The notes beneath the pieces were generated by a model that ran no database searches, had not been told where the DNA came from, and was given only the letters and a program-made list of their open reading frames with translations. Both the position numbers and the translations under genes were made by a program. Below, in pieces: positions 2,225 through 46,811 of a stretch of 64,000 nt of DNA. Numbering within the stretch: position 1 is the stretch's first letter; each line of letters starts with the position of its first letter. The DNA comes from Marivita sp. S6314 (GTDB lineage Bacteria > Pseudomonadota > Alphaproteobacteria > Rhodobacterales > Rhodobacteraceae): contig NZ_JALKAO010000008.1 of the NCBI RefSeq assembly GCF_023015985.1, positions 1 through 64,000 of the forward strand. Direction: 5' to 3'.

Positions 2225-2345
2225 GACGTTCTCCTGAATAATCGCGGATGACAGTGGCACATCCCGCTCTGCGATGCGCGCATTTTCTGGGCCCGCGCGC
2301 AACACCACGTCTTGCGAACAGGCTTCAAGTCTGCGACCGATGCCA

Positions 2346-2486
2346 TGTTCTCAGGGCGGGGCGGAATTCCCCACCGGCGGTAAGCGGCGAAATCCGTAAG
2401 CCCGCGAGCGCCTTTCGATCAGAAAGGGTCAAGCAGATCAGGTGCAATTCCTGAGCCGACGGTCACAGTCCGGATGAAAGAGAATG
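2346..2486 (+). ncRNA. FMN riboswitch (RFN element)
   Basis: The conserved blocks of the RFN element appear in the right order. They are TTCTCAGGGCGGGG at the 5' arm, then CCCCACCGGCGGTA, GCCCGCGAGCGC, a GGTGCAATTCCTGAGCCGAC block, and CAGTCCGGATGAAAGAGAA at the 3' end. The element binds flavin mononucleotide and lowers expression when flavin is plentiful. It lies 76 bases upstream of ribH2 on the same strand. No strong U-tailed terminator follows, so control of translation initiation at the AGGAG site (2551) is more likely than attenuation; this is inference. Confidence 0.95.
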
Positions 2487-2562
2487 TGCAACCAACCTGT
2501 CCGCAGGTCCGGGCTGCATGTGATCGCCTTGGGTGACGTGTCACTGTGAAAGGAGATCCGAA

Positions 2563-12644: not shown

Positions 12645-12679
12645 TGGGGATGCCCCAGAATCTTCGTACGAAGATTCTG
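12645..12679. repeat. Tandem palindromes downstream of dinB
   Basis: A short palindrome (TGGGG-ATG-CCCCA, 12645-12657) runs directly into a perfect 24-bp one (12656-12679, arms CAGAATCTTCGT and complement). A T8 tract comes before rather than after, so this is not a standard terminator for dinB. GTTATTAAA follows shortly. The element belongs to the set of paired palindromes described in the findings. Confidence 0.8.
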
Positions 12680-31477: not shown

Positions 31478-32194
31478 ATGACACAGCACGCAACATTCCA
31501 AGACACGTCCAAACGCGTCGCCGTTTTTGTGGACGGCGACAATCTGAACGCCGATTGGGCGGAAACCATTCTTGTACATGCCAAGAAATTCGGGCGTATC
31601 GACACGTCACGCGTCTATACAAATTACGACCATGCGCCCAACTGGAAGGATACCACCGGCTTTCGACATGTCAGTTCCGGTTGCGGCAAGAATGCGACCG
31701 ATATCATGCTGTGTATTGACGCAATAACCCTAGCCCTGACCGAAAGCACCAATACCGTCGTTATTGGCACGTCAGATCAGGATTTCAGACATCTCGCCCA
31801 CTCTTTGAAAGAACGCGGCATTATGGTTGTCGGCATTGGAACAACAGTCGCGCCGCCCGCATTCCGAGACGCCTGCCACATCTTCAGGGAGCTGATATCG
31901 CCCTTATCTTCTGACACGTCTTGCGAGGCGCAAGGTCAACGCCCCTCAAGCAAGTTCGACCGTAATGTCTGCCATATTATTGCACAACATGCACCATCGC
32001 CACATGGGTTGCCGCTTACAGCGTTAAACCCTCTCATGACAAGGCAGTTCAATACACGCATCTCAGACCAGCCAGACAAGCAATGGCGCACGTATCTGGA
32101 GCGGCGCAACGACCTCTATGCGCTTGATCCGAGAGGGCCCAACGCAAAGGTGCGCCTGACCAAGACGGCCCGCGCCGCCTTAGTGAAAACCTGA
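31478..32194 (+). CDS. NYN (PIN-like) ribonuclease-type protein with a C-terminal LOTUS-like domain
   Basis: The 238-residue protein has a NYN domain at about 12-145 with the acidic residues expected of a metal-dependent nuclease: D19 and D21 in FVDGDN, D in TDIMLCIDA and D in IGTSDQDF. The C-terminal 80 residues (GLPLTALNPLMTRQF, then KQWRTYLERR) resemble the OST-HTH/LOTUS RNA-binding fold. This is the LabA/limkain-type architecture. Its target RNA is unknown. I chose ATG 31478 because the fold begins soon after; the ribosome site is poor. It lies 52 bp after the regulator and ends against a palindrome pair. Confidence 0.85.
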   Translation: MTQHATFQDTSKRVAVFVDGDNLNADWAETILVHAKKFGRIDTSRVYTNYDHAPNWKDTTGFRHVSSGCGKNATDIMLCIDAITLALTESTNTVVIGTSDQDFRHLAHSLKERGIMVVGIGTTVAPPAFRDACHIFRELISPLSSDTSCEAQGQRPSSKFDRNVCHIIAQHAPSPHGLPLTALNPLMTRQFNTRISDQPDKQWRTYLERRNDLYALDPRGPNAKVRLTKTARAALVKT

Positions 32195-32238
32195 CACCAA
32201 ACGCGTCGACGCGTTTGGTGCGCTCCGTCGACGGAGCG
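32195..32238. repeat. Tandem perfect palindromes directly after the NYN gene
   Basis: A perfect 26-bp palindrome (32195-32220, arm CACCAAACGCGTC) starts on the base after the TGA stop and is joined without a gap to a perfect 18-bp palindrome (32221-32238, arm CGCTCCGTC). The second contains the 16-bp core GCTCCGTCGACGGAGC that recurs at 46244-46259. No T tract follows. Confidence 0.85.
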
Positions 32239-32245
32239 CCCGCGG

Positions 32246-33034
32246 CTAAAGATCAAATGTCGCAAACACCGGCGCGTGGTCGCTGGGCTTTTCCCAGCCA
32301 CGCGCGTGTCGCAAAACCCGGCTTGAATGCGCAGCGTTCGAAATATCCGGCGTGGCCCAGACATGGTCCAGCCGACGGCCCTTATCCGCCGCATCCCAAT
32401 CCCGCGCGCGGTACGACCACCACGAATACAGCATCCCCTCGGGAATATCCTTGCGGGTCACATCCACCCAGCCCCCGGCGTCCTGCGTCTCGGCCAGATG
32501 CTCGACCTCGACCGGCGTGTGGCTGACCACCTTGAGCAGTTGCTTGTGTGACCAGACATCATCCTCGCGCGGTGCGATGTTCAAATCGCCGACCAAGACG
32601 GCTTTCTCAGGTCGTTCAGCCTTAAACCAGTCTCGCATGTCCGTCAGGTAATCAAGCTTCTGACCGAATTTCTCGTTCACCTCCCGGTCCGGCACATCGC
32701 CCCCGGCAGGCACATAGAAATTATGGATCGTCACCCCGTTCTCCAACCGCCCCGCCACGTGCCGCGCATGGCCCAGACCGGCAAAATCCTGATCCCCCAC
32801 GTCTTCGATGGGCAGCTTCGACAGGATCGCAACGCCGTTATACCCCTTTTGCCCGCGCGCGATCATGTGACCATAGCCCAGCGCTGCAAATTGTTCCGTG
32901 GGGATTTTCTCAACCGGGCTTTTGCACTCCTGCAGACACAGCACATCCGGCGCTTCTTCGGACAGCAGCTTCGCCACCAAGCCTTCGCGCAGGCGGACGG
33001 AATTGATGTTCCAGGTGGCAAGGGTAAACGGCAT
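32246..33034 (-). CDS. xthA: Exodeoxyribonuclease III
   Basis: The 262-residue AP endonuclease/3'-exonuclease acts in base excision repair. Motifs of the family are present: TWNINSVR near the N-terminus, LCLQECK with the metal-binding Glu, GDLNIAP, and SDHAPV at the end with the catalytic Asp-His. I start it at ATG 33034, which has GGAG upstream and begins MPFTLATWNINS. A longer frame to 33052 is unlikely. It converges with the NYN gene across the palindrome pair. Confidence 0.95.
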   Translation of the reverse strand: MPFTLATWNINSVRLREGLVAKLLSEEAPDVLCLQECKSPVEKIPTEQFAALGYGHMIARGQKGYNGVAILSKLPIEDVGDQDFAGLGHARHVAGRLENGVTIHNFYVPAGGDVPDREVNEKFGQKLDYLTDMRDWFKAERPEKAVLVGDLNIAPREDDVWSHKQLLKVVSHTPVEVEHLAETQDAGGWVDVTRKDIPEGMLYSWWSYRARDWDAADKGRRLDHVWATPDISNAAHSSRVLRHARGWEKPSDHAPVFATFDL

Positions 33035-40521: not shown

Positions 40522-40560
40522 AAATGTTTCGCGCGCGAAACATTTGGTCCGGTTCGGACC
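40522..40560. repeat. Tandem palindromes between the HNH and alcohol dehydrogenase genes
   Basis: A perfect 24-bp palindrome (40522-40545, arm AAATGTTTCGCG) is followed directly by GGTCCG-GTT-CGGACC (40546-40560) and then TATTAACCAATTG. A further hairpin AGCGGGC/GCCCGCT lies at 40452-40470. The rest of this 156-bp convergent gap holds nothing else I can name. Confidence 0.8.
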
Positions 40561-45484: not shown

Positions 45485-45496
45485 ATGTGTTGCTCC

Positions 45497-46216
45497 ATGA
45501 GTGCGAAGATCAGGCTTTTTGTAGAGCAGCCGCTTGGGGCGGCACAAGCCGTCCCTCTGACGCGGGAGCAGGCGCATTACCTGTTTGGTGTGATGCGTCT
45601 GACGGTTGGTGGACATGTGGCGCTGTTCAACGGGACAGATGGCGAATGGCAGGCCGACATTGTCGAGGCTGGCAAACGCAAGGGCGTGTTGGTCTGCCGC
45701 GCGCAATCGCAACCGCAATCCCTGCCCCCGGATCTTTGGTTGCTGTTCGCACCGATCAAGAAAGCGCGCACCGATTTTATCGTGGAAAAGGCCGTGGAGA
45801 TGGGTGTGCGGCGCATCCTGCCGGTGCAGACCGCCTTCACCAATTCAGAGCGCATCCGGCAGGACCGGCTGCAGGCCCATGCGATTGAGGCGGCGGAACA
45901 ATGCGGTGCCACTTTTGTGCCCGAGGTCGCGGCCCTGACCAAGCTGGAGCGGGTTCTGGACCGATGGGACACCAGCCGTCAGATCGGCTTTTGCGATGAG
46001 CGTCTGGCAGGCGAGACCGGGCATTTGCCGGATGTTCCGGGGCCGTGGGCGCTCCTGATCGGGCCGGAAGGCGGGTTCTCTGACGACGAACGCGCGCGGC
46101 TGCGCGGGCTGGAGGCATCGCATGCGCTCAGCCTTGGCCCGCGTATTCTGCGCGCCGACACGGCGGCTGTTGCGGCGCTGACCCTGTGGCAATCGACGTT
46201 GGGAGACTGGGCATGA
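45497..46216 (+). CDS. rsmE: 16S rRNA (uracil-1498-N3)-methyltransferase
   Basis: The 239-residue SPOUT-class methyltransferase modifies U1498 of 16S rRNA with S-adenosylmethionine. The family blocks are clear: an N-terminal PUA-like region (IRLFVEQPLG), the KKARTDFIVEKAVEMGVRRI segment, and the knot LLIGPEGGFSDDERA followed by LSLGPRILRADTAAVAAL. I use ATG 45497, matching the MSAKIRLFVE start usual in relatives; 45485 is in frame. There is no room for a promoter between it and ubiA, so its promoter must lie inside ubiA. Confidence 0.95.
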   Translation: MSAKIRLFVEQPLGAAQAVPLTREQAHYLFGVMRLTVGGHVALFNGTDGEWQADIVEAGKRKGVLVCRAQSQPQSLPPDLWLLFAPIKKARTDFIVEKAVEMGVRRILPVQTAFTNSERIRQDRLQAHAIEAAEQCGATFVPEVAALTKLERVLDRWDTSRQIGFCDERLAGETGHLPDVPGPWALLIGPEGGFSDDERARLRGLEASHALSLGPRILRADTAAVAALTLWQSTLGDWA

Positions 46217-46218
46217 CA

Positions 46219-46262
46219 GGTTTTTGGTCGACCAAAAACCGCAGCTCCGTCGACGGAGCTGC
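46219..46262. repeat. Tandem perfect palindromes after rsmE
   Basis: A perfect 22-bp palindrome (46219-46240, arm GGTTTTTGGTC) begins 2 bases after the rsmE stop and is joined to another perfect 22-bp palindrome (46241-46262, arm GCAGCTCCGTC). The inner 16 bp of the second are identical to the second palindrome at 32222-32237. The downstream gene begins 18 bp later. Confidence 0.85.
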
Positions 46263-46280
46263 GCCCCACGGGAGAGGCCG

Positions 46281-46811
46281 ATGAGCTTTGTGCGCCCCGG
46301 TGCCAAAAACGTGATCCTACGCTGGCGCGAAGCGTTGGTGGGAGCGGCGATCCTTGGTCTTGGGGTCTATTGGAGCTTTGGGGTCACGCCCGGGATCCTG
46401 TCGTGGATCGGCTATCTGGCCGTCTTGCTTGGGGCCGCCTTGTTCTTTGCCGGGCTGCAAAAAGGACGCTCGCGGCTGGGCGGCGGTGGACCGGGTGTGG
46501 TGCAGGTGATCGAACGGCGCATTGGCTATTTCGGCCCGCTGAACGGTGGTTTGGTGGATCTTGATGCCGTCACGTCGCTGAATTTCGACCCAACAGAACA
46601 CCCGGCAACCTGGGTCATCACCCATGACGCGGGACCGGCTTTGCACATTCCCGTCAATGCCGAGAACGCGGATGTCCTGTTCGATGTGTTTGCCAGCCTG
46701 CCGGGCCTGAGTCCGGGGCGGGTTGCCTCTGTCTCGCGGCAGGAAGGCACGCGTCCCATTGTGCTTTGGCGCAGGGCTGATCTTCAGCAACGCATTGCCC
46801 GCTTGCATTGA
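46281..46811 (+). CDS. Two-helix membrane protein of unknown function
   Basis: The 176-residue protein has two transmembrane helices (about 20-36 and 40-58) and a cytoplasmic domain of about 115 residues, rich in beta strands (VVQVIERRIGYFGPLNGGLVDLDAVTSLNF). I recognise this as a type seen in Rhodobacterales genomes but know no function. GAGAGG precedes the ATG. It lies downstream of rsmE beyond a palindrome pair and 63 bp before gshA, so the three may form one transcription unit. Confidence 0.75.
   Translation: MSFVRPGAKNVILRWREALVGAAILGLGVYWSFGVTPGILSWIGYLAVLLGAALFFAGLQKGRSRLGGGGPGVVQVIERRIGYFGPLNGGLVDLDAVTSLNFDPTEHPATWVITHDAGPALHIPVNAENADVLFDVFASLPGLSPGRVASVSRQEGTRPIVLWRRADLQQRIARLH

Follow-up and report, generated by a model that had tools for sequence, protein, structure and literature searches.

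Palindromic repeats of the general kind described here are already known, and the Marivita pairs stand out among them by a register that is unusually fixed and by arms that covary freely. Rhizobium-specific intergenic mosaic elements (RIME) are palindromic intergenic repeats of alphaproteobacteria, which by description alone resemble the Marivita family. For REP-like palindromes it is still argued whether they protect RNA 3′ ends, act on DNA topology or reflect only mutation and spread. In E. coli, REPs are described as 14–40 nt long (PMC12306157), and REP/BIME elements in the broad sense of that source share with the Marivita family that they are extragenic, palindromic, short, built on a common motif, present in many copies and near gene ends. 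The nearest in kind are the CGTC-tagged alphaproteobacterial REPs, for which PMC3733652 gives a stem of 8–9 bp, a loop of 4–5 nt and an arrangement in dimers as criteria; the words Rhodobacter, Roseobacter, Ruegeria, Sulfitobacter and alphaproteobacteria are absent from its main text. The 3′ stem-loops of trimmed Rho-terminated RNAs likewise are hairpins after a stop codon without a U tract, and the passages that deal with them in PMC9927376 and PMC8269248 do not describe them as a repeated sequence family or as double hairpins. We found no description of the Marivita family in the open-licence literature, a scope that mostly leaves out subscription journals.

The window analysed here is the whole stretch of 64,000 nucleotides from Marivita sp. 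S6314. It holds a pair of palindromes between two convergent genes, and this pair belongs to a genus-specific repeat, a REP-like dimer of two different palindromes that is dispersed behind genes. The locus contains the following features.

31478..32194, + strand: NYN-domain gene (PF01936, E 1.3e-22); its stop TGA at 32192-32194 touches the pair
32195..32220, no strand assigned: first palindrome of the NYN/xthA pair, 26 bp, perfect; B-type arm with core AACGCG-TCGA-CGCGTT
32220..32239, no strand assigned: second palindrome of the NYN/xthA pair, 20 bp, perfect; A-type arm with core GCTCCG-TCGA-CGGAGC
32246..33034, - strand: xthA-like gene of the endonuclease/exonuclease/phosphatase family (PF03372), convergent to NYN; ends 6 bases from the pair

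The gap between the two genes is 51 bases long, 45 of which (32195–32239) are taken up by the two palindromes, with their centres 22 nt apart. A preliminary description of this DNA had reported palindromes of 26 and 18 bp, directly joined and beginning on the base after the stop. The first is indeed a perfect 26-bp palindrome that starts right after the NYN TGA; the second measures 20 bp, and the two overlap, base 32220 being common to both. The T tract said to be missing is indeed absent on the NYN strand, but on the xthA strand TTTT starts 5 nt past the hairpins (TCAGGTTTTC).

A second pair lies behind an rsmE-like gene, between genes pointing the same way.

45485..46216, + strand: rsmE-like RNA methyltransferase gene (PF04452, PF20260), upstream of the second pair; stop at 46214-46216
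46219..46240, no strand assigned: first palindrome of the rsmE pair, 22 bp, perfect; A-type arm
46240..46263, no strand assigned: second palindrome of the rsmE pair, 24 bp, perfect; carries the shared 16-mer
46281..46811, + strand: ORF without Pfam match, starting 17 bases after the rsmE pair

This pair does not adjoin the rsmE stop but begins two bases behind it. The 16-mer GCTCCGTCGACGGAGC is present at 32222–32237 and 46244–46259 and, according to an exact genome-wide search, nowhere else in the 3,767,503-base genome. Its exact repeat 14 kb off, in the second palindrome of a pair, had been seen beforehand and was found so. Both copies are real; as a link between the two loci they are less telling, as both pairs belong to a more extensive family of paired palindromes. 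The 16-mer itself is not dispersed as an exact sequence, having two copies only in the genome. The same applies in the genus to the exact sequences of the rsmE hairpins, of which hairpin A is found in 9 of 17 genomes, never in more than 2 copies, and hairpin B, always single, in 7 of 17, both mostly at rsmE. Perfect palindromes of at least 20 bp number six in the window, against about 0.2 per window expected from 50 first-order Markov simulations. A single perfect 24-bp palindrome, CAGAATCTTCGTACGAAGATTCTG, stands unpaired at 12656–12679.

The family follows the plan of a REP-like double hairpin, in which arm A (GTTTCCG-N4-CGGAAAC) and arm B (GATGCG-N4-CGCATC) have their centres 22 nt apart; the NYN/xthA pair shows this plan in B-A order. 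Single palindromes are 18–26 bp long and the dimer spans about 45 nt. A 1.18-Mb sample of the genome, drawn from 61 sources that include the window, contained 32 tandem hairpin pairs, compared with 2 in a single replicate of a third-order Markov control. The spacings in this unsupervised list are unbiased, and its classes were assigned by eye: among the 12 family-plan pairs the centres are exactly 22.0 nt apart in 10 and 21.0 nt apart in 2, with stems of 7–11 bp. Spacings of copies found by model R1 are biased, since R1 was trained at spacing 22. The covariance model R2, built from 21 copies (alignment A2), recovered 19 distinct sites in the sample at E ≤0.01, 10 inside and 9 outside its training set, and gave 71 raw matches on both strands of the whole genome. 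It matches the NYN/xthA copy, which is in the training set, at 32194–32243 with 60.6 bits.

A dispersed 3′-end element had been proposed in the preliminary description, with a count no higher than in shuffled sequence or a lack of 3′ enrichment named as grounds for refutation. Run on the 1.18-Mb sample, this check did not refute the proposal, which is supported by the 32 tandem pairs against 2 and by the position of all 19 family sites behind at least one gene. The partition-protein site suggested alongside it is unlikely, because copies lie on at least 10 contigs of the assembly and the family is nearly confined to one genus.

How does the family compare with the described systems? Four points of the five-point REP definition (PMC12306157) are found in it, namely that it is palindromic, short, multicopy and built on a common motif. 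With regard to the remaining point, extragenic and usually transcribed, none of the 19 sample sites lies in a gene body, and two overlap the predicted last bases of a gene (L137 by 4, L151 14014 by about 25). The family forms predicted stem-loops; its members were mostly chosen by palindromy, the rsmE orthologues not. The Marivita unit differs from REP/BIME in being a dimer of two different palindromes in near-fixed register, the arms of which covary at orthologous sites. A Y1 transposase (RAYT-type) domain, PF01797, had no match in the genome, and the same search was positive in 5 of 14 control genomes; a RAYT-driven REP is ruled out by this absence. With the CGTC-tagged REPs, as described in PMC3733652, the family shares stems of about 8–9 bp, 4-nt loops, tens of copies and the lack of a dedicated transposase. 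Those REPs too are often heterodimers, and the Marivita unit is a dimer by definition, with stems mostly of 7–11 bp and 4-nt loops. Its CGTC lies inside the paired centre CGTCGACG instead of forming an unpaired end tag, and by eye we saw no unpaired CGTC tag in the few flanking columns of the 21 copies. Unlike U-tract intrinsic terminators, members of the family are mostly not followed by a T-rich tract. A known Rfam element is ruled out, as there was no match at gathering score at either pair or at the copies in the 19 loci scanned. Rfam models did recognise an FMN riboswitch in the window (2343–2489, + strand; RF00050, 113 bits) and an L2-Alphaproteobacteria ribosomal protein leader in L117 (3459–3551, + strand; RF03142, 56 bits).

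Among the 19 sample sites, 10 are convergent, 8 codirectional and 1 at a contig edge, none is divergent, and 16 lie within 22 nt of a stop codon. The 863 gaps between predicted genes in the sample comprise 141 convergent, 167 divergent and 555 codirectional ones, based on gene calls from a simple hexamer script that missed rsmE and called a spurious ORF there (the rsmE site was set by hand from homology). Compared with these gaps, the convergent excess has a P of 3e-4 and the absence of divergent sites a P of 0.017; with gaps of at least 45 bases only, the values are 1.6e-4 and 0.0018. The NYN element folds with -31.3 and -31.9 kcal/mol on the two strands, into two hairpins each, and the rsmE element with its flanks with -35.2 kcal/mol. 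The corresponding z-scores are -3.7 and -3.1 for the two strands of the NYN element and -4.1 for the rsmE element.

The role that we consider most likely, with a probability of about 0.48, is that of a hairpin barrier at mRNA 3′ ends that lacks a U tract and can be used from both sides. If the gene is transcribed, its RNA would form two back-to-back hairpins of about 7–11 bp right after the stop codon. The hairpins themselves would not be U-tract terminators; transcription would end further downstream, by Rho or at another terminator, and the hairpins would then block 3′-to-5′ exonucleases, so that the mRNA 3′ end would be set and protected. Because each unit is a palindrome, one copy could serve both convergent genes, here NYN and xthA. 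Perfect pairing would be kept both by selection on the hairpins and by template switching, through which one arm corrects the other. The family with its architecture and placement, the covariation of its arms, its nearly exclusive occurrence in one genus and its variable presence among genomes are observed. We infer the transcription of the pair, the exonuclease barrier and the upkeep of pairing, and the barrier role is taken over by analogy from REP hairpins, which at mRNA ends hinder decay (PMC12306157), and from E. coli Rho-terminated RNAs, which are trimmed back to a stem-loop (PMC9927376). A role of the Marivita pair in RNA stability is plausible, and it is supported by the position behind stop codons, by stable hairpins on either strand and by the loops considered below. 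Behind xthA the NYN/xthA copy is not needed, since it is absent there in 15 of 15 other genomes.

All 17 Marivita genomes match R2, with 19 to 114 raw both-strand matches each, 150 candidates having been scored in every genome. Of 197 other genera of the Rhodobacteraceae, each represented by one genome and searched under stricter filters (E ≤0.001; 30 candidates scored per genome), two matched; 8 raw matches came from G213 and 1 from G018. Within the reach of these searches, the double palindrome of Marivita is a lineage-specific repeat family. A strict two-site pattern, CGTCGACG-N13..16-CGTCGACG, matched in 14 of 198 genomes and says little across the Rhodobacteraceae, because outside this genome and G213 its 17 matches stand against 13 in the reversed-pattern control.

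An rsmE relative was found in 41 of 41 genomes searched, and the pair after its stop codon is kept in 16 of the 17 genus genomes, G015 being without it. In named genomes the pair is present at 12 of the 13 closest rsmE loci (one badly worn; 9 of the 13 loci from Marivita) and at 0 of 67 further loci of the Rhodobacteraceae. In Marivita hallyeonensis rsmE runs directly into the next start codon, and by eye many other genera are alike; this arrangement is likely the empty state of the site. We then scanned seven further genes with a copy in this genome, with a cut-off of at least 13 of 18 positions paired at spacing 22. In 300 random sequences the best pairing score had a mean of 9.2, was at most 11 in 95% and had a maximum of 13, the cut-off itself. 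The pair was detected behind trpD in 15 of 17 genus genomes, prfB in 9 of 17, the M3 peptidase gene in 8 of 16 (one more sequence was too short) and panC in 4 of 10, counts that are to be read knowing that seven of the eight sites with orthologue counts were picked because this genome carries a copy. The xthA/NYN pair was present in 1 of 16 genomes, this one only. At the same cut-off the hemC pair was found in 0 of 16 other genomes, and the pncB pair in 0 of 17 at the spacing-22 setting, the copy in this genome having spacing 21. Several prfB and panC sites below the cut-off resemble worn remnants. In G015, NYN and xthA are convergent with 21 bases between their stops and no pair, which represents the empty NYN/xthA site. 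Behind the M3 peptidase gene we observed GTCGAC centres at spacing 21 in G006, G008 and G013 and TTCGAA centres at spacing 22 in G012; both arms differ between genomes yet are complementary in each.

The patchy presence at xthA, hemC and pncB and the joint rewriting of the arms behind the M3 peptidase gene would suit a palindromic repeat that spreads without a host function, is tolerated only behind genes and owes its perfection to template switching during replication, with one arm copied onto the other. Template switching can create and maintain perfect hairpins (PMC8794818) and can homogenise arms (PMC8604942), and the stems, as detailed below, show no G-U preference. Nevertheless, we regard mutation and spread as an unlikely explanation, as the pair is kept at rsmE and trpD in nearly all genus genomes, the 22-nt register is fixed, the inner arms are conserved and the convergent excess goes beyond mere promoter avoidance. 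In addition, no mobilising enzyme was found, the genome having been searched for PF01797 only. At the gene ends examined in the 17 genus genomes, this one compact double palindrome is in some cases conserved or worn and in others missing or altered in step in both arms. The genus therefore offers a natural experiment that separates selection from upkeep by template switching, and the copies provide a target list for Term-seq in culturable marine bacteria.

At the rsmE pair (alignment A1, 16 sequences) 96.2% of pair cells are standard pairs. Both sides have changed in 9 of 18 base pairs, compared with 2.6 in shuffles and a maximum of 4 on sliding; the score for covariation is 0.261, against 0.095. 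A1 consists of rsmE orthologues and is not circular, whereas the pairing statistics of A2 are, because most of its copies had been chosen as hairpins. Changes at orthologous sites affect the two arms together and keep them complementary; outer arm positions vary freely while remaining complementary, as seen in A1 and, with partly circular evidence, in A2. The orthologue pairing count leaves out rows below 60% identity (panC excepted) and stretches that were too short, which removed one M3-peptidase row (L342). Stem mismatches over five orthologous sites are 16 G-U and 15 A-C, and at the three sites that are codirectional in this genome (rsmE, prfB and trpD) 7 G-U and 12 A-C. Judged by this lack of asymmetry, a sense-only RNA hairpin was rejected, which made us less confident of the RNA reading, and nothing points to selection acting on the transcribed strand alone. 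Watson-Crick pairing in the palindrome is maintained regardless of the coding strand, which fits a function on both strands, a function of the DNA or arm-on-arm template switching.

A function of the DNA would mean that a double palindrome with centres two helical turns apart is bound by gyrase or a nucleoid protein, or extrudes into a cruciform, at places behind genes, and above all between convergent ones, at which positive supercoils accumulate. The 22-bp centre spacing, the convergent excess and the mismatches without strand preference are in line with such a site. E. coli REPs have been linked to DNA topology and nucleoid structure (PMC12306157), and REPs can bind gyrase and DNA polymerase I (PMC2873474). 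However, a dimer that reads sequence does not need complementary outer arms that vary freely, the central four bases often break the dyad (TCAA, TTGA, TGGA, GCGA), and 16 of the 19 sites hug a stop codon. We consider a DNA-level site improbable, slightly more so than mere mutational spread.

The loops return us to the RNA barrier. At rsmE, prfB and trpD an NNRA loop is present in the sense strand only in 13 cases, in the complement only in 4, in both in 58 and in neither in 5, with a P of 0.025 calculated on related sequences. Informative loops at sites that are convergent in this genome are split 1 to 3 (sense to complement) at panC and 2 to 0 at the M3 peptidase gene. A further reading makes more of these features and takes the unit as a structure-reading module, with hairpins 22 nt apart, NNRA-type loops, a position behind a gene and arms exchangeable wholesale. 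A dedicated hairpin-binding factor would read it on both strands and define 3′ ends, and related TCGA-centred pairs would have arisen in parallel in other genera. This we hold to be very doubtful.

That the paired hairpins alone stop RNA polymerase from both sides, as intrinsic terminators without a U tract, is similarly hard to credit: strong hairpins do stand directly after stops and between convergent genes, and in a GC-rich Streptomyces structured 3′ ends that lack U are common (353 of 1,427 mapped ends; PMC8269248), but TTTT is absent from the next 10 nt at 21 of 22 sense-strand ends (the exception lies at the NYN copy, on its xthA side; the count excludes 5 of the 19 sites, where no strict pair was obtained), hairpins followed by TTTT also occur at gene ends of this genome (31 in the sample, a script count with duplicates kept), and the next ORF begins so close behind the rsmE pair that complete termination would split what is likely an operon. 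At trpD orthologues and at 2 of the 19 sample sites (L150 and L151) a different hairpin element, GGGGGCGCTGCCCCC...ATTT, follows the pair, and therefore the pair need not be a terminator.

Several other repeats were noticed. 3′ elements of the type GGGGGCGCTGCCCCC...CCCCCGAGGTATTT number 17 in the sample and 0 in one Markov control, likewise a single replicate, and 11 of the 17 have a same-strand stop no more than 200 nt upstream. A third palindromic repeat, TGTTTCGCGCGCGAAACA, occurs five times in exact form in the 1.18-Mb sample, either between genes or behind them, and is usually flanked by inverted repeats of the GGTCCG..CGGACC type; in L004 this repeat and a member of the double-palindrome family are about 30 bases apart. 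The pattern TTTCGAAA-N13..17-TTTCGAAA occurs in 13 of 198 genera, with 41 matches against 6 in the reversed control. G213 carries pairs or triples of GTCGAC-centred hairpins with very different arms, spaced about 23–24 nt apart, at loci L290, L292, L294 and L296. A second set of hairpin pairs in this genome, mostly TTCGAA-centred and close behind genes, combines an AAGCCC..-type arm with a ACGCGGTT..-type arm, and in L009 four hairpins of this set stand in a row.

L151 4484; L150 9795 (minus strand); L121 19455: elements of the GGGGGCGCTGCCCCC...CCCCCGAGGTATTT type, among others
Window 40522-40560; L004 18431; L115 16631; L122 10123; L130 9813: copies of TGTTTCGCGCGCGAAACA
L008 9776-9820; L009 5937-6027; L117 14460-14504; L124 1105-1146; L132 10906-10949; L140 13631-13676; L144 4545-4590: TTCGAA-type pairs
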